Source: an uncultured Clostridia bacterium (GTDB taxonomy: Bacteria > Bacillota > Clostridia > Christensenellales > CAG-917). Taken from it: a DNA stretch of 44,130 nucleotides. The DNA lies in the NCBI GenBank assembly GCA_944349635.1, contig CALVNH010000009.1:1-44130 (forward strand), read 5' to 3'. The notes under the pieces are model-generated. The model was given only the letters and a program-made list of their open reading frames with translations, searched no databases and was not told where the DNA came from. A program made the translations under genes and the position numbers. Positions 33,066 through 42,588 of the stretch are shown piece by piece (position 1 is the first letter of the stretch; every line of letters starts with the position of its first letter).

Positions 33066-33941
33066 GTGAAAACGGTCATAGGCGTCTACGACAGCGGCAT
33101 AGGAGGACTCACCACCCTCTCAAAACTTGCGGCACGGCTTCCGCAATGCGACTTCCGTTATCTTGCGGACAACGCGAGAATGCCTTTCGGCACGAAAAGC
33201 AAGGAGGAAATCGCCGCCGCGGTCTACTCCGCAATCGAACGCCTGAAACAGGACTGCGACATCGTGGTTTTGGGCTGTAACACGGCATCTACCGCGGTAA
33301 ATCCCGACGGAGTGTTCAAATTGAAACCCCGTCTGGACGGGTGTGTGCCTTCCGAAACCCTGGTGCTTGCCACCCCGCTGACGCTTGCCGCGACGCAAGC
33401 GCGGGAAAAAGGTTTTTTGACGGCCGACACCAAAGAACTTGCCGTTCTCACGGAGATACAGGCGTCACTGTGTTTCAAGAGCAAAACCGTTATATCCATG
33501 AAAAATCTGGACGGCTATTTTGCGGAAAGGCTTTCGTCTGCAACCGAAAGCGGAAAAATAAAAAAAGTGATTCTGGGGTGTTCGCATTATGTCTACGCAC
33601 GCGACAGACTGGCGGCGCTGTTCCCTTCCGCCGAATTCGCCGACGGCAACGACGCTCTCACCGACGAAGTGTGCAAGTGCGTTCACGGTTTTTTCGACGT
33701 GTCGGAAAGCGCTTCTATTTTTGCGCCGTTAAGACGGGAATACACAGGGTTGGGCTGTTGCGACGGTTGCGGACTCGCACGCTTGCAGCGTGACCCGTCC
33801 TTTTCCGCCCCGCATCCGTCGGTGACTTTCGCTTTTACCGCAGAATGCGAAACGGACAAATACAAATGGTTGCTCGAAAAACTTTTCGAAAGTTACGTCG
33901 CCAAAGACACAACATTCCCGTTTTGCCGCTGCTTTCAATGA
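33066..33941 (+). CDS. murI: Glutamate racemase MurI
   Basis: MurI interconverts L- and D-glutamate, supplying D-Glu for MurD. The 291-residue product has GVYDSGIGGLTTL (about 6-18), LADNARMPFG, the first catalytic Cys in LGCNTAST (about 73) and the second in LGCSHYVY (about 172). It is divergent in the second half and somewhat longer than usual. The start is GTG at 33066 with no strong ribosome site. A weak TAGAGT box (33054-33059) sits where it would give a near-leaderless mRNA, but no -35 is visible. The 3' end overlaps that of gpr by seven bases. Confidence 0.88.
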   Translation: MKTVIGVYDSGIGGLTTLSKLAARLPQCDFRYLADNARMPFGTKSKEEIAAAVYSAIERLKQDCDIVVLGCNTASTAVNPDGVFKLKPRLDGCVPSETLVLATPLTLAATQAREKGFLTADTKELAVLTEIQASLCFKSKTVISMKNLDGYFAERLSSATESGKIKKVILGCSHYVYARDRLAALFPSAEFADGNDALTDEVCKCVHGFFDVSESASIFAPLRREYTGLGCCDGCGLARLQRDPSFSAPHPSVTFAFTAECETDKYKWLLEKLFESYVAKDTTFPFCRCFQ

Positions 33942-34810
33942 TTTTCTCCGAAAGCCGCATTGATTGCCCCTGCGACAACGGCGGCGGCGGAATCCGCATA
34001 ATAGAGAATCTCTTTGGGCGCCACAACGAGATTGCCCAGCCTCTTTTCGGCAATTTCGTTGCGCAGGCGGTATTCGTCGCATTCAACCCCCGACGCACAC
34101 AGATAATCTTTCGCAAAATCGGAAAGCACGGTGCGCATGGAAAGCACGAGAGGCACCCCCACCGCGACTACCGGCACACCGAGAACGGAGCGGTCAATCC
34201 TCGGTTTGTCGCCGCCCACTCCGCTTGCGGGAGCAATTCCCGCAGTCGTGAGCTGAAACGACGTCCCCAATCTGGTTGCGGACGACGTGGCAAGCGAATC
34301 GACAACGATAACGCACGAGGGCTTGATTTTCATGCATACACCCTCCACCGTATCGGCTGTTTTTATTCCGGTGAGTCCCTCAACTCCCGCGGAAAAGCCG
34401 CAAAGTCTTACCTTGGCGCGCGGTCGCTTCGCCTCGCTGACGGGTGACACGTCAAGCATGTCAACCGTTCTTCGTCCAAGCGAATCGGCAGTCACGTTGT
34501 CGTTGCCGAGTCCGACGACAAGCACTTTGGAAGTCCTGCCCTGCACACCCACAAGTTCGACCAGCGTTTCCGCTATTCTGTTCTGCAACGTCCTGATTTT
34601 GGAAGAGCTTTCCAGCACCGCAGACGGACAATCGTACGTCACGTAAACGCCCTTTTCCTTGCCTGCTTTTTCCGCCAGTTCGGATTTGGTGAGATTGACA
34701 TAGCGCCTGACTATGCCGTACGACAGCGTGCTTTCGCGCGCCAGATTGCCCATAGAGCGTTTTTCCAGTGCGTCCACCGCCATATCCGAAACGAAATTAT
34801 CGAAATCCAC
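33935..34810 (-). CDS. gpr: Germination protease GPR (spore protease, family A25)
   Basis: GPR degrades small acid-soluble spore proteins during germination and is a marker of endospore formers. The 291-residue product has VVGLGNDNVTADSLGRRTVD (about 97-116) and IVVDSLATSSATRLGTSFQL, the conserved blocks that include the catalytic Asp residues, then GIAPASGVGG. It is somewhat shorter than Bacillus GPR (about 370 residues). The start is GTG without a Shine-Dalgarno. CATAATA directly upstream resembles the forespore sigma-F/G -10 (CATNNTA). It is divergent from rpsT, a common neighbour of gpr in Firmicutes. Confidence 0.94.
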   Translation of the reverse strand: MDFDNFVSDMAVDALEKRSMGNLARESTLSYGIVRRYVNLTKSELAEKAGKEKGVYVTYDCPSAVLESSSKIRTLQNRIAETLVELVGVQGRTSKVLVVGLGNDNVTADSLGRRTVDMLDVSPVSEAKRPRAKVRLCGFSAGVEGLTGIKTADTVEGVCMKIKPSCVIVVDSLATSSATRLGTSFQLTTAGIAPASGVGGDKPRIDRSVLGVPVVAVGVPLVLSMRTVLSDFAKDYLCASGVECDEYRLRNEIAEKRLGNLVVAPKEILYYADSAAAVVAGAINAAFGENH

Positions 34811-35436: not shown

Positions 35437-37281
35437 TTATCGTTCTTTCTCCTTCCACCCGTCGGCATAGCCGCGTTGCTTTTTCTTCTTTGCCGCAACC
35501 GCGGCGGCAATTCCGCCTGCAACGACAATCCCCAGCAAAACGTAACCCGTAATCTCCAAGCCCTTGTACAGCTTCTCTTTGTCAACGACTTCGACATTTA
35601 CCGTTACCGTGCTGTCGCTCATCGTGCCGTCCACGGAGTACGAAATCAGATAAGTGCCCTTTTTGTCGGGAGCGAAACGAAACTCTCTTCCCCTATGCAC
35701 CGCTTGTCCGTCAACGTACCACACCGCCTCCGCGTCGGGATTGAGCGCTGCGGAATTCTCGAAGCCGAAAACCACGGTTTCTCCCTTTACCGTATTGCAC
35801 GCCCCGTCGGTTATCTCCGTTTCGGAAACTATTTTCCAGGACGTTTCGAATTCGGCGTAAGTCACGGACAGAACCTGCGTCTCCGACGTCAGAAGCGGCG
35901 TCGAATCCGTCATTGCTCCGTACACCGACACCGTCACGGTGACGCTCTGCAAGGAATGCGGAGTCCACGACATAACCAGTCTCTTTCCGTAAACGGTGTA
36001 TGCAAGTCCGTCCAATACGTAATGCCATTCGTAAACCAGTCCTTCGTAGTCGTCGGAAGGCACAAGCGTTGCGGATAGTTCCACCCTGTTGGTCTCTCCG
36101 AAGACAAGCTCGGAAAGCGAAATTTCCGCTTTGAGTTCTTCGGGCGCAAGCTGCACGTTTCCGTTTGCGTCGATAACGAAATCTTCCGTCACGAGTCCCA
36201 ACGCGTCCAAGACGGGAAATTCCGTCTGATACGCCGTGAGCGTCGGACATTCAACCATATAGGAAGTGAACGCGTCGTAAGCCTTTGCCGCCGTGAAATC
36301 CCCGAGTACGCCGCTTGCGCGGTATCTGACTTCCAACAGCCCCACGGTAAATGCCGTCACGGGGGAAGCCATGCTGGTACCGGTCATGTTTTTGTAGCCG
36401 TTCACGGTTGCGGCGTTCGCGCTGAAAATGTCCGTACCGGGAGCGCAAACGTCGAAAAAGCTTCCGAAATTGGAAGACTCTCTCATTGTTTTTTCACCGC
36501 CTGACATTCCGTAGTTCATCACTCCGATGACGTTGTCGGAGGCGGCGGGATATGTCCGCACGTTTTTGCCGTCGTTCCCCGCGGCGGCAACGAAAACGGC
36601 TTTTTGCGCGTCGCTTTGCGTGACCAGTGAACTCCAACTCGTCGAGGTTGCGGCAAACGACATATTCACGACGTCGGCACCGTTTGAAAGAGCGAAATCC
36701 ACGGCTTCAATCACATCCGAAAGGCGGAAACTGTTCTGCTCCTTCCCGTTCTTGACTTCCGAGTAGCCCGCTCTTATCGGCATTATTTTTACGTAATCTT
36801 CCAAATCGAGAGCGCGTATCAGAGCGGCGACGATTCCCGCCACATGCGTACCGTGTCCGTCGTAACCGGCATCGGCTATGTCGTCGTTGTCGGAATATGT
36901 GTTTCTTCCCACTGTTTTCCCGTCGCCGTCGGTCAGCAACACTCCGTCGAAAAGCTCGTGGTCGGCGTTTATACCCGTATCGATGACAGCTATCACCACG
37001 GGGTCGGAAAGCAATTTCTCAAAAGAAAAAGCGTCGTCGGCCTTCCAGCCGTCCACGACGCCTTTCAATGAGTTTATGTTGAGATTGTCCGCGTCGAAGT
37101 GCCAGTCGTTCCGATACGCATCGTCGAGATAACTTTCGGGCAACGCCGCATACGCCGTGTCCGACCCGCAGACCGAAAACACCGCCGCGAAGCACAAAAC
37201 GAAACAAACCGCAACCGCCGTCATCAGCATTGCGCAACGTCTCATTTCGGTTTTTCCGCAACAGCGTCGAATGCCCGACAT
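35437..37281 (-). CDS. Membrane-anchored subtilisin-like serine protease (S8)
   Basis: This is a predicted surface protease. The 614-residue product has a signal peptide (hydrophobic about 18-45, ending near AYAA). The S8 domain follows, with the catalytic Asp in VIAVIDTGI (about 95-103), His in DGHGTHVAGI, the oxyanion Asn in VAAAGND and Ser in GTSMASP. About 230 residues of predicted beta/Ig-like sequence come next, then one C-terminal helix (about 577-597) and KKKK. The helix plus Lys-rich tail anchors it in the membrane without a sortase signal. There is no obvious inhibitor-type prodomain. It starts 18 bases after the alpha-CTD/WG gene, in the same operon. The first ATG is used; a second, 12 codons on, is possible. 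Confidence 0.92.
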   Translation of the reverse strand: MSGIRRCCGKTEMRRCAMLMTAVAVCFVLCFAAVFSVCGSDTAYAALPESYLDDAYRNDWHFDADNLNINSLKGVVDGWKADDAFSFEKLLSDPVVIAVIDTGINADHELFDGVLLTDGDGKTVGRNTYSDNDDIADAGYDGHGTHVAGIVAALIRALDLEDYVKIMPIRAGYSEVKNGKEQNSFRLSDVIEAVDFALSNGADVVNMSFAATSTSWSSLVTQSDAQKAVFVAAAGNDGKNVRTYPAASDNVIGVMNYGMSGGEKTMRESSNFGSFFDVCAPGTDIFSANAATVNGYKNMTGTSMASPVTAFTVGLLEVRYRASGVLGDFTAAKAYDAFTSYMVECPTLTAYQTEFPVLDALGLVTEDFVIDANGNVQLAPEELKAEISLSELVFGETNRVELSATLVPSDDYEGLVYEWHYVLDGLAYTVYGKRLVMSWTPHSLQSVTVTVSVYGAMTDSTPLLTSETQVLSVTYAEFETSWKIVSETEITDGACNTVKGETVVFGFENSAALNPDAEAVWYVDGQAVHRGREFRFAPDKKGTYLISYSVDGTMSDSTVTVNVEVVDKEKLYKGLEITGYVLLGIVVAGGIAAAVAAKKKKQRGYADGWKEKER

Positions 37282-37299: not shown

Positions 37300-38217
37300 T
37301 CATATCCACTTGACGGAACCGTCTGGGAAAATGGTTCCCCACCTGCCGTCCTTCTTGACCTTGGCTTCCCCTTCTTCAAAGGCAGTCGCGGCGTCGTAAA
37401 TAAAAGGAATGACCTCTTCGTTCTGTTTGTCGATATACCCGCACTTGCCGTTTTTCACCACGCTTGCCAGCCCTTCGGAAAAACTCATAGCCGTTTCGTA
37501 CACGAAGGGAATCACGATTTCGTTTGCGGGGTTGATGTAGCCGCACTTCTCTTCGAGTTCGACGGAAGCAAGCCCGTCCTTGAAACAGAACACTTCGTCG
37601 TACATTGGCGGAATCACGGTTTTCATTCCGTCGTAAAAACCCCACTTTCCGCCTTTCTGAACCTTTCGCCACTCTTCGACGGGCAACGGTTCAGTAACCT
37701 TCGCAGGGCGTTCTTCCTTCTTGGGAGTCAGCTTCGCACCTTGCGCGTTGCCGCGACGCGCATTCCTGTCGTCGCGCGCCGAAGCCTTGTCACGCGTAAG
37801 CTGTTTGTCTCGCCTGTCGTCAGCGGCAACGTTGCCTTTTGCGGCAACGGAAGCCGAATCCGGCAAAAACTCCATGCCTTTGCCGGCAAGCAGACCTTTC
37901 AGTTCCAACAACATCTTTTTGTTGAAACCCTGCACCTTGAACATATCCTTTTCCGTGCGGGACACAAGGTCCGCAACGGTGCCGATTCTGTATTTGGAAA
38001 GCAGCGCCACCGTGTTTTCCGCAGCGCCCAGCTCCTTCACGGAAACCGCGGTTTTCTCCGCAGGATAACGCGAAACCGCCTGCGCCGAACCCGTGTGCCT
38101 GCGCTGTCTGTCGTTTCTTCCGCGGGAATTGTCCTGCGCGGCGTTGCGTTCGGCGGGAGTGCCGTCGGAAGCGGAGCTTTTCTTTTTGCCGCCGTAATGA
38201 AATTTTCTGTTAGCCAT
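37300..38217 (-). CDS. Fusion of an RNA polymerase alpha-CTD-like domain and WG repeats
   Basis: Function unknown; 305 residues. An Arg/Lys/Ser-rich N-terminus (1-50) precedes a helix-hairpin-helix segment (about 58-118: AVSVKELGAAENTVALL, RIGTVADLVSRTEKDM, GFNKKMLLELKGLL). This follows the pattern of the RNA polymerase alpha C-terminal domain. A basic linker (120-180) is followed by about three to four WG-type repeats (about 188-305: GKWGFYDG, KCGYINPANEIVIPFVY, GKCGYIDKQNEEVIPFIY, GRWGTIFPDG). No signal peptide is present, so it should be cytoplasmic. AAAGGT precedes the ATG at 38217. It lies upstream of the S8 protease and divergent from the SH3/propeller gene. Confidence 0.85.
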   Translation of the reverse strand: MANRKFHYGGKKKSSASDGTPAERNAAQDNSRGRNDRQRRHTGSAQAVSRYPAEKTAVSVKELGAAENTVALLSKYRIGTVADLVSRTEKDMFKVQGFNKKMLLELKGLLAGKGMEFLPDSASVAAKGNVAADDRRDKQLTRDKASARDDRNARRGNAQGAKLTPKKEERPAKVTEPLPVEEWRKVQKGGKWGFYDGMKTVIPPMYDEVFCFKDGLASVELEEKCGYINPANEIVIPFVYETAMSFSEGLASVVKNGKCGYIDKQNEEVIPFIYDAATAFEEGEAKVKKDGRWGTIFPDGSVKWI

Positions 38218-38234: not shown

Positions 38235-38263
38235 ATAATACCACATATTGAGTTATATATCAA
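38235..38263 (-). promoter_or_regulatory. Promoter for the alpha-CTD/WG gene and S8 protease
   Basis: On the minus strand TTGATA (38258-38263), a 17-base spacer and TATTAT (38235-38240), with a TG extension just upstream, form a strong sigma-A promoter. It is back-to-back with the promoter at 38279-38307. Confidence 0.65.
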
Positions 38264-38313: not shown

Positions 38314-40698
38314 ATGAAAATTTTGTCGAAAAATTTGCGTTGGATAATTCCCTTCATACTGTTCGCCGCGGTGTTGGTCGCGGTGCTTTGTGCAGGAAGT
38401 CATACGGCGTACGCAGACAACTTCGACATCGTTTATCCCGACGACGGCTACTTTCCCGTCGACCGCGCGGGTTACGTCACCGCAACCAACGATTACATCG
38501 CCGTCTATGACGCAGAAAGACGAAACGTTCTCGTGACGGGCAAGCGCGATTTTCACCTCAACGCCTTCGCATACGAGAGCGTGAGCGGACTCTGGATTGC
38601 AAACGATACCCTGCTTTTGCGTTACGGAAAGACGGAATCCTCCTTTGTCAGCGTGGATATGAGTGCCGCGCTTCCCGCCTTTGCCGACGCCGACCTCTAC
38701 ACCCCCGAAAACATCTCTTACATCGTTTCCGACGGCACGCGCTTTTATGCGAAATCCGACACGGTGCTTGCCGTATATAACTCAAATCTCGAAGTTTATC
38801 GTGACAATATTACCCATTCAACCGCTCTTTCCGGCAAATTCGTGTTCGCCGCGGAAGGCTCGTCGCTCTATATTTTCGCTTTGGATTTCGGCGACAGGGA
38901 ATACTTTGTCTACAACATAGATTTGAACGAATCCGCACGCAATGAGTGCGAAATCACGCCCTATGCCGTGGCGGGCTCCGAAGGCGGAATTATCGCCAAC
39001 ACGGGTTCTTCGCTTGTCGTCGTCGACAAGCAGAAAGGCAAAGTTCTGTTCGACACCGGAATAACCTGCGACAAGGATTCCGCATTCACTTCCTTTGCAA
39101 ACAAGATATATTTTGTCAACTCCGACGGCGCGGTGGAAATCTACACCGTGAATTTTGAAACAGGTTCCGTCACCCTCACGGACACGCTTTCCATGCGCGG
39201 CAACGGCGAAGCGGGTTTCAACAGTCCCTCCGACGTCATCAAAAGCGGAAATACCGCGGTGATTGCCGACACGCTCAATCAAAGAATCGTGTTTGCCACG
39301 GGCAACAGTTTCTCCTCCGTGCAGACGACAGGCGACGCTCCTTTCCGTCTTGCCGAATATCCGTTCGGCGTTTACGCCGCTTCCGAACACACGATTTATT
39401 CCGTTACGCGCACTTCTGCGACTCCCATGCTCAGCTATGACGGCTCCGTGCGCGACATAATGTTCATCGACGGAGTGCTGTACGCTCTCACCGATTCTTC
39501 CCTGGATATGATAATAAACACCACTCCCGTATGTCTCGCCAAAGTAAAAGACGGAATCGCGGTGACGCGCGCGGAAGAGGGCTCCTGCATCTACGTTCTG
39601 ACGAAAACCGGCATTCTCACTCTGGACACGAAAGGCAAAGAAGTTCTCCCGGAGAGAAAATACGATTTCACCGACGCAACCGACTTTGCGGCGGATTATA
39701 CGGGCACTTTCTTCGTCGCTTTCAACGGCGACGACAAACAGAAGATATCCGTCATAAGCAACAATCCGTCTTCCCTCGCTCTCTCCCGCGACATCGTCAT
39801 AGAGTCCGACCTTGTCGACCCCGCCCCGCTCTCCGTGACACTCGACGGCAGCAAGGCACTGTTTGCATCTGCGTCCTGCTTCATCGGAAGCATCGAAGCC
39901 GGCGCCGTGGACAAGGAGCACTTCGCTCCTACGGAATCTCCCGTCCTGGACGAAACTTCGTCCGTTTCTTTTGCCAAACTCACGCAGGATTCCTTCCTGC
40001 TTTCCGAACCTCTACGCATCGACACAATGTCACCCGTTGCCGCCGATACCGTGGTGTTGGTGTTCGACGGGGCCTCTCGCGCCGACGGCTACACTTACGT
40101 TTATCTGCAAGGCAAACGGCAGTATGTCGAGACCTCTCTTCTGCAAGCCGTCACTCCGTCTCCCGTCAACAAACGCTTCACTCTTAAAGCGGGCGCGGAA
40201 AGGATTGCCTATCCTTCCTGCGACATAGCGCAAAGCGCGTCGGAAGACGCCGTCGTCACCGTCACGGATTACGCCGCAGGTCTCGACGGCGGAGTCTGGG
40301 CAAGAATCGACACAAACGGACAGCTTCTCTTTGTCCGCGTGTCCGACCTCGTGGAATATGTCGAAACCGTGCCGGAAAAGGAACGCATATTCGGCAGAGC
40401 CGTTTCCGACCGCGCGGGCGGCATCGTCAACGTCTACGCACTACCCGACTCGTCTTCGACCGTGGTGCTTGAAATCGTCGACGGCACACGCATGGAAATT
40501 CTCGACGAATCGGGCGAATTCTATTACGTCGAGACGGAAAACGCACGCGGCTACGTTCTGAAAGAACAGGTGGAACTCGAAGGGCTTACAACGGTGCAGA
40601 TAGTCTCCATTGTCCTTGCTGTCGCGGTGTTCGTCACGGGTGCGATAATATTCGTCTTCGTCTACGCCGCAAAGAAAAAAGAAAAAGAAAAAGCATAG
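38314..40698 (+). CDS. Large membrane-anchored surface protein, propeller-like with SH3-like domains
   Basis: The 794-residue product has a signal peptide (hydrophobic about 11-28, then AYADN). A long beta-repeat region (about 40-540) follows and reads like a propeller; one stretch, FNSPSDVIKSGNTAVIADTLNQ, is NHL-like if read in two parts. Two SH3-like segments come next (about 585-630 and 690-755, the latter with VNVYALPDSSSTVVLEI and GYVLKEQVE). The C-terminus is a membrane helix (about 764-787) and a Lys/Glu tail. It is predicted to sit outside the membrane and bind wall or polymer; no catalytic motif is seen. It is divergent from the alpha-CTD/WG-protease pair. The MKILSKN start fits a signal peptide better than the longer frame. 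Confidence 0.85.
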   Translation: MKILSKNLRWIIPFILFAAVLVAVLCAGSHTAYADNFDIVYPDDGYFPVDRAGYVTATNDYIAVYDAERRNVLVTGKRDFHLNAFAYESVSGLWIANDTLLLRYGKTESSFVSVDMSAALPAFADADLYTPENISYIVSDGTRFYAKSDTVLAVYNSNLEVYRDNITHSTALSGKFVFAAEGSSLYIFALDFGDREYFVYNIDLNESARNECEITPYAVAGSEGGIIANTGSSLVVVDKQKGKVLFDTGITCDKDSAFTSFANKIYFVNSDGAVEIYTVNFETGSVTLTDTLSMRGNGEAGFNSPSDVIKSGNTAVIADTLNQRIVFATGNSFSSVQTTGDAPFRLAEYPFGVYAASEHTIYSVTRTSATPMLSYDGSVRDIMFIDGVLYALTDSSLDMIINTTPVCLAKVKDGIAVTRAEEGSCIYVLTKTGILTLDTKGKEVLPERKYDFTDATDFAADYTGTFFVAFNGDDKQKISVISNNPSSLALSRDIVIESDLVDPAPLSVTLDGSKALFASASCFIGSIEAGAVDKEHFAPTESPVLDETSSVSFAKLTQDSFLLSEPLRIDTMSPVAADTVVLVFDGASRADGYTYVYLQGKRQYVETSLLQAVTPSPVNKRFTLKAGAERIAYPSCDIAQSASEDAVVTVTDYAAGLDGGVWARIDTNGQLLFVRVSDLVEYVETVPEKERIFGRAVSDRAGGIVNVYALPDSSSTVVLEIVDGTRMEILDESGEFYYVETENARGYVLKEQVELEGLTTVQIVSIVLAVAVFVTGAIIFVFVYAAKKKEKEKA

Positions 40699-40755: not shown

Positions 40756-40832
40756 CTGGGTGTGGCGCAGCTTGGTAGCGCGCTTGAATGGGGTTCAAGA
40801 GGCCGGAAGTTCAAATCTTCTCACCCAGACCA
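40756..40832 (+). tRNA. tRNA-Pro (anticodon GGG)
   Basis: The sequence folds as a standard 77-base tRNA with encoded CCA. The acceptor is CTGGGTG/CACCCAG, the D stem GCGC/GCGC and the anticodon stem CTTGA/TCAAG. The loop ATGGGGT has anticodon GGG. The T stem GGAAG/CTTCT surrounds TTCAAAT. The discriminator base is A. It reads CCC and CCU proline codons. Confidence 0.95.
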
Positions 40833-41541: not shown

Positions 41542-42588
41542 TCAGTTTTTTCGGAAATAAAACGTCGCTTTTCCCTTGCCTTCCCTGCCGATGACCCCCT
41601 CCTCCAACAGCACTCTCAAAGCGTTTTCTACGGAGGTTTTTCCTATCGACGGCACGCGTTCCATAATGTCGTTCTTCGTGAACTTCCCTATCATATTGCC
41701 GACGGCGATTTTCACCAAATCCGTGGACGAGTATTTGCCTTCGACGGCCGTCATTCTTTCTTCGAAATCCCTGTAAGCCGCCAACACCGTTCCGAGCGTG
41801 TATTTGATAAAAGGCGTGCTGTCGTTCTCGCCGGTATACCAATTCGCATCACTCTTCGCCAGCGCGTCATAATAACTGTCCTTAGTGTTTTCGATTTTGC
41901 TTTCCAAGCTGATATATTTGCCGACCACATACCCGGCACGGTACAACAGCAAAGTGGTGAGCAGGCGCGACATCCTTCCGTTGCCGTCCGAGAACGGGTG
42001 AATGCAGAGGAAATCCATAATGAACGCAGGGATGAGGATAAGCTGGTCCACTTCGCAAGCGTCCACCGCCCTGTTAAAGCTCTCACATATCTTTTCAACC
42101 GCCGCTGGGGTTTCGAAGGGATCAAGCGGCACAAATCTTACAATCTCTTCTCCGTCCGCTTTTGTTTCCTTTACGAAATTTTGCGCAATCTTAAACCTGC
42201 CGCCTATACCTCTTTGAGAATAGCGGTACAGCACCTGATGCAGCTGCAAAATATAGGAAACCTTAATCGGGATATATTCGTAGCTCTCATGAATCAAAGC
42301 CAGAGCGTCACGGTATCCCGAAATTTCCTCTTCGTCTCTGTTCCGCGGCGTAGTCTTCTGCTCGCATAATTGCTTGATACGGGACGCAGTGGTAATAATG
42401 CCCTCAATTTTATTGGACGACTCTGTGCTTTGTATCTTTGCGACCTCAACAAGCTTTTCAAGCGTCGCGGGTTTTTGCTTCAAATACAAAGCCTGCTTGC
42501 CCTTATATTCGTGAATTTGAGCAACCAATCCGAGAATTTCGCTATCCCACTTTATTTCTCTCAATTTACCGTAATCAAAATCTCTCAT
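41542..42588 (-). CDS. Fic family protein with N-terminal inhibitory motif
   Basis: Fic proteins usually transfer AMP from ATP to a hydroxyl group of a target protein. The 348-residue product has an N-terminal helix with SNKIEG (58-63), which fits the (S/T)xxxE(G/N) self-inhibition motif. The Fic core has a complete catalytic loop, HPFSDGNGRMSR (197-208). A C-terminal winged-helix-like region (about 275-348) follows. This is the class II layout with built-in inhibitor, so a separate antitoxin is not needed and none is seen. AGGAG precedes the ATG. It has its own strong promoter at 42616-42644. The target is unknown. Confidence 0.93.
   Translation of the reverse strand: MRDFDYGKLREIKWDSEILGLVAQIHEYKGKQALYLKQKPATLEKLVEVAKIQSTESSNKIEGIITTASRIKQLCEQKTTPRNRDEEEISGYRDALALIHESYEYIPIKVSYILQLHQVLYRYSQRGIGGRFKIAQNFVKETKADGEEIVRFVPLDPFETPAAVEKICESFNRAVDACEVDQLILIPAFIMDFLCIHPFSDGNGRMSRLLTTLLLYRAGYVVGKYISLESKIENTKDSYYDALAKSDANWYTGENDSTPFIKYTLGTVLAAYRDFEERMTAVEGKYSSTDLVKIAVGNMIGKFTKNDIMERVPSIGKTSVENALRVLLEEGVIGREGKGKATFYFRKN

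Follow-up and report, generated by a model that had tools for sequence, protein, structure and literature searches.

A lineage-specific fusion of an RNA polymerase alpha-CTD homologue with WG repeats, a possible cytoplasmic adaptor in Clostridia-type bacteria

We know of no molecular role for WG repeats (WG_beta_rep, PF14903). In the C-terminal domain of the RNA polymerase alpha subunit (alpha-CTD; RNA_pol_A_CTD, PF03118), N268 is a DNA-reading residue, the 261 determinant is an acidic patch at positions 258, 259 and 261, and positions 285-288 form a functional surface. A passage in one source describes R265 and N294 as entering the minor groove and K291 and K298 as bridging to phosphates (PMC7822876). 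A passage in another names R265, N294 and K298 as residues that may contact minor-groove sequences (PMC5101437), and because K298 is placed there the split between base-reading and backbone residues is not a clean one. The AR2 region of NusA is a double helix-hairpin-helix module that binds the alpha-CTD and SuhB (PMC6614801).

The gene considered here lies in a 44,130-nucleotide stretch of DNA from an uncultured Clostridia bacterium (the window), where an open reading frame at 37300..38217 on the minus strand encodes 305 amino acids from an ATG and fuses an alpha-CTD-like domain to WG repeats. All parts of the protein are encoded on the same strand. A basic N-terminal tail that begins MANRKFHY (residues 1-49; 38071..38217; net charge +7) precedes the alpha-CTD-like domain (residues 50-119, approximately; 37861..38070), which was placed by profile, PDB and hhalign matches. 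A basic low-complexity linker of 56 residues follows (residues 120-175; 37693..37860; net charge +6), and the protein ends in an acidic WG repeat domain (residues 176-305; 37303..37692) with three Pfam repeats and a partial one recognized by eye.

This layout was followed through 81 orthologues. The first 41 of them had been selected for having both parts from 45 distinct open reading frames found with phmmer, and L043, L059, L060 and L061 were dropped from that set by alignment as WG-only or RpoA sequences. L041, which contains undetermined residues, was left out of alignments A1, A4 and A5, and L044 was left out of A1; both are among the 81. L028 is truncated at a contig end. MANKKFYY-type starts, similar to that of the window's protein, are seen in the alignments. 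Net charge is positive in the tail of 81/81 orthologues and in the linker of 76/81, and negative in the WG part of 80/81, with medians of +5 for the tail, +3 for the domain, +6 for the linker and -5 for the WG part. Linker length ranges from 23 to 185 residues. Judged from composition, the tail and the linker are probably disordered. A 19-residue hydropathy window, a crude measure, exceeded 1.6 in just one of the 81 orthologues, and no membrane or export segment was evident. The sequence-only reading had described basic, disordered linkers in a cytoplasmic protein, and these comparisons bear out the charge and are in keeping with the location. Against nine members of the genus, identity is 79-85% in the WG domain and 53-61% in the alpha-like domain. 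Short conserved stretches, possibly interaction motifs, occur within the variable linker: a GMTINEI-MGKR type in L084, L098 and others (family f5), a VDFSKIFPRE type in L086, L087 and others (f16), and a KFGLADRR type in 6/10 rows of alignment A2.

The alpha-CTD-like domain was compared with known domains at several levels. In the Pfam scan of the single protein, PF03118 fell on residues 73-110 at 22.9 bits, just below the cut-off of 23.8. Run over the genome, the same model reached 26 bits here, above the cut-off, and this was its sole match at E <= 0.1 besides rpoA. It also matched 38 of the 39 family members at E <= 0.001. A phmmer search of the single protein against the PDB returned alpha-CTD chains from E 1.6e-4 over residues 57-120. 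With a profile of the domain (A4, 40 rows) the best PDB match was an RpoA alpha chain at 2.5e-16, and the non-RpoA matches at E <= 0.1 were RAD51D (RAD51L3) chains only, the best at 0.0044. Aligned by hhalign with nine RpoA CTDs of the order, the domain gave a probability of 99.3 over 66 columns without gaps. A generic helix-hairpin-helix assignment, one of the two outcomes that would have refuted the original proposal, was rejected, since HHH_5 scored 13.7 bits against a cut-off of 27 and the PDB and hhalign matches point to RpoA. Sequence comparison thus supports the domain as a true alpha-CTD homologue rather than a generic helix-hairpin-helix. Pfam detected no alpha N-terminal domain in the open reading frame, and a separate rpoA is present elsewhere in the genome. 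In a tree of the 81 family domains and 22 RpoA CTDs, the 81 grouped together with support of 0.88; the tree, built on about 65 columns, does not show their RpoA source.

Two NCBIfam models also fell on the alpha-like domain. NF011498 (RNA polymerase beta', positions 1306-1375 of 1459) was matched by 20/39 family members and NF033442 (BREX PglW, about positions 772-891 of 1391) by 11/39, although the PglW matches extend into the tail and the linker (residues 15-127 in L015 and 10-116 in L018), so that composition may contribute. These matches suggest a wider occurrence of alpha-CTD-like domains, in proteins whose partner domains are other than WG repeats. NusA AR2 resembles the fusion in being a helix-hairpin-helix module of a transcription factor, but no NusA chain appeared among the A4 PDB matches at E <= 0.1, and Pfam placed neither KH nor S1 domains in the fusion.

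The second half of the protein was assigned by PF14903, which Pfam placed on three stretches (E 1e-32) at 37543-37626, 37441-37542 and 37339-37440 on the minus strand, each above the cut-off. The model matched all 39 family members. The protein thus has three tandem repeats in common with described WG_beta_rep proteins and differs from them in that its WG set is short and follows an alpha-CTD-like domain. A WG profile (A5, 40 rows) had no convincing match in the PDB (best E 0.41), and the WG propeller of the sequence-only reading is a putative fold. The ranges proposed from the sequence alone, residues 58-118 for the alpha-CTD-like domain and 188-305 for the WG repeats, agree roughly with those found by these searches.

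The pairing had been thought to lack a characterised precedent, and no description of it was found in the literature searched (titles and beginnings of abstracts, among the matches listed). The fusion itself recurs. An initial scan of 60 genomes, including the window's own, gave 44 with a match at E <= 0.001, a count that includes WG-only and RpoA-only matches. Named-species genomes gave 11 loci, 10 of them fused relatives whose titles name Clostridia, Clostridiales or Bacillota bacteria; a locus titled Neisseriaceae was dropped, as it matched residues 116-302 only. In 297 genomes of the order, A4 found a match in 287, and a second match or a fused copy alone was seen in seven families (f1, f5, f7, f9, f13, f16 and f24). 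Within the order sample of these seven families, 89/93 genomes carry a second or fused match (f1 22/22, f5 20/21, f7 2/2, f9 3/3, f13 6/6, f16 18/20 and f24 18/19), as a core gene would show. In five of the genomes (G074, G091, G170, G234 and G304) fused matches were seen with the follow-up scan. One of the four misses, G263, matched in part, from model position 72 onward, within an open frame reported as 24,251 amino acids long, which we took for masked sequence; the fusion was not found in G227, G229 and G285 (81%, 93% and 54% complete). In the other 204 genomes of the order only G053 had two A4 matches, and the full-length profile gave there an RpoA-type match with no WG part.

As an unselected test of the fusion, second alpha-CTD-like matches from families other than the window's (f1) were fetched, and WG repeats lay on the same open reading frame in 40/40; they come from 62 such matches listed, of which a further 6 belonged to the set beforehand and the other 16 were left out. 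Together with the seven families, this result rules out an artefact of a single assembly, a concern raised with the original proposal. Beyond the order, the full-length profile was run against 398 genomes of the phylum (E <= 1e-20) and 391 of the class (E <= 1e-25), and full-length matches came from two genomes only, G000 and G013, which belong to the window's family. These samples are thin per order, so that rare fusions may exist elsewhere, and with 5 or 6 candidates scored per genome a fusion in a WG-rich genome could escape. The remaining matches listed have their start at model position 120 or beyond, in the linker or WG part, so that other WG proteins match over those positions only. A mobile-element origin was also rejected: the tblastn hits lay in 3 phage and 26 plasmid records, with less than 80% of the query covered in each, and the matches start at residue 157 or later, in linker and WG sequence only (3/3 phage places and the 10/26 plasmid places listed).

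Residues of the domain were numbered as in E. coli through alignment to the genome's own RpoA, with the Arg of VRSYNC, which we take to be R265, as anchor. The R265-equivalent is Arg in 6/81 orthologues, the N268-equivalent Asn in 4/81 and the N294-equivalent Asn in 21/81. R265 Arg and N294 Asn occur together in 3/81, and R265 Arg and N268 Asn together in 1/81. In none of the 81 are positions 258, 259 and 261 all acidic; the RpoA of the same genome carries E, D and D at these positions. RpoA controls were taken from 22 genomes of the order, of which 21 belong to fused families, and R265 and N268 were found in 22/22, as was N294, scored by eye. The basic hairpin shows the opposite pattern, with K or R at the K291-equivalent in 76/81 orthologues and at the K297- and K298-equivalents in 81/81. 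Position 290 is Tyr or Phe in 79/81, 296 is Gly in 28/81, 299 is Ser in 0/81 and 302 is Glu in 63/81. With RpoA the domain thus has in common the profile match, the gapless alignment and basic residues at 291, 297 and 298; it differs in the missing alpha N-terminal domain, in the residues for DNA reading and the 261 patch, mostly lost, and in the WG repeats that follow.

Read from these alignments, the domain has kept the basic hairpin and has mostly lost base reading. Since R265 and N294 are mostly gone here and RpoA keeps them, promoter reading in the manner of the alpha-CTD is weakened as an explanation. The idea that the protein touches promoter DNA through a CTD-like module therefore holds for the homology of the module and loses ground on base reading. 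A kept hairpin with lost base reading speaks for either a contact with nucleic acid that is not sequence-specific or a contact with protein.

We tentatively favor, with some reserve, a reading of the fusion as a lineage-specific, probably housekeeping cytoplasmic adaptor, in which an alpha-CTD relative joined to a WG domain would attach to a nucleic acid or to a transcription complex and would not read the sequence. The alpha-like domain and the basic tails would contact the backbone phosphates of DNA or RNA irrespective of sequence. Alternatively, these parts may dock on a transcription complex in a way similar to that of NusA AR2 on the alpha-CTD. The strongly constrained, acidic WG domain would bind a putative partner, which would thereby be brought to the nucleic acid or transcription complex. 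It speaks against the adaptor reading that the loss of R265 and N294 is expected as well of a domain used solely to contact proteins, and that the conserved lysines may have a structural role.

The genes around the fusion bear on the alternatives. Downstream, after a gap of 18 bases, lies an S8 subtilase (35437..37281, minus strand; Peptidase_S8 E 9e-35) with hydrophobic N- and C-terminal segments seen by eye. On the other side is a divergently transcribed SH3_3 protein (38314..40698, plus strand; SH3_3 E 1.7e-7) with a hydrophobic C-terminal segment, also by eye. In the window's family the fusion gene often sits between these two, near rpsT and gpr. Homologues of the subtilase were found in 28/39 neighbor loci and of the SH3_3 protein in 31/39, where some loci represent the same genome twice and some are short. 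As a cluster gene the subtilase is missing from the six loci of other families and from L044, L045, L054 and L058; of the six, only L051 has the SH3_3 homologue, a few kb from the fusion gene. Other-family loci show a semialdehyde dehydrogenase (L046), MreB (L048) or TrkH and TrkA (L051) beside the fusion gene, or a methyltransferase and a DnaX-like protein near it (L049). A fixed operon partner was accordingly rejected, as neighbors are kept in many loci of the window's family and mostly not across families. The subtilase is 32-44% identical to its 28 neighbor-locus homologues and is far less conserved than the WG domain of the fusion.

In the window rpsT, gpr and an EF-G-type gene also lie near the fusion gene. 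Two loci of other families resemble this: L047 keeps all three genes, and in L050 gpr and an rpsT match are found at a distance of about 4-6 kb from the fusion gene. This context lends something to the idea of a ribosome- or RNA-associated factor, whose basic tails and hairpin would bind rRNA or mRNA and whose WG domain would hold a partner in translation or RNA processing, as do the tails, which by eye resemble the basic tails of ribosomal proteins, and hairpin lysines that are basic throughout the 81 orthologues. The context is missing, however, from the other 4/6 other-family loci, the closest PDB relatives are alpha-CTDs, and no ribosomal or RNA-binding helix-hairpin-helix protein appeared at E <= 0.1; we consider this idea rather unlikely. 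Slightly less credible is a pure protein scaffold, in which the alpha-like fold would serve protein contact only, with the linkers as spacers, perhaps tied to the neighboring membrane-anchored subtilase and SH3 protein. Such a scaffold fits the loss of most DNA-reading residues and the frequency of both neighbors, but not the other-family loci, where the subtilase is absent and the SH3 protein occurs once, nor the invariably basic tails and hairpin lysines. Finally, a decoy or anti-activator that mimics the RpoA CTD and draws regulators off the polymerase is improbable, for although an RTE-D-M stretch gives most proteins of the window's family an alpha-like surface around 285-288, Thr stands at position 285 in only 42/81 orthologues and Glu at 286 in only 54/81, and the 261 patch is never complete.

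Other features were recorded nearby. A germination protease (33935-34810, minus strand; PF03418 E 1e-40) lies beside rpsT and an Asp/Glu racemase-like gene; in an assembly of 1.35 Mb it is a hint of sporulation in a small genome. A Fic/DOC family protein is encoded at 41542-42588 on the minus strand (PF02661 E 4.1e-15). Apart from a tRNA gene at 40756-40829 (plus strand; RF00005, 59.8 bits), no RNA element was found beside the fusion gene.

The adaptor that we favor would be made constitutively. A sigma-A-type promoter-like site, TTGATA-17-TATTAT with a TG before the second hexamer, lies at 38235..38263 on the minus strand and ends 17 nt before the ATG. Sites of this kind were scored as consensus matches against single-base shuffles, and a stretch of 1.3 kb holds 4 against a shuffle mean of 0.7. 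At most 100 nt upstream of the start, 43/81 orthologues have such a site (shuffle mean 13.9, maximum 21) and 38/81 show none, with starts taken as the first Met of the open reading frame, which is wrong for L014 and L021 at least. In the window's family 28/35 have one, and 16 of these 28 end 16-17 nt before the start. Codon adaptation of the fusion gene is moderate, at 0.603 (rank 9 of 23 chosen window genes; EF-G 0.745), measured against 20 reference genes that include non-ribosomal genes of the same cluster. High expression is accordingly not favored, and an abundant nucleoid protein is not indicated. Presence in nearly every genome of seven families, a promoter-like site of its own and changing neighbors together make the fusion look like a core gene.

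It is possible, if doubtful, that the fusion is a core factor of transcription or of the nucleoid, specific to its lineage. In that case a copy of the alpha-CTD would have been fused to WG repeats in an ancestor of the seven families, and the product would act constitutively as an adaptor on RNA polymerase or the nucleoid, gripping the backbone without reading sequence. The pattern of residues makes the adaptor reading testable through the hairpin lysines. The fusion is a recurrent gene of small-genome Clostridia-type bacteria in which a piece of the transcription machinery is paired with a repeat domain. If it proves to be bound to polymerase or nucleoid, WG repeats would gain a molecular role, and the alpha-CTD would be shown able to become a free adaptor.
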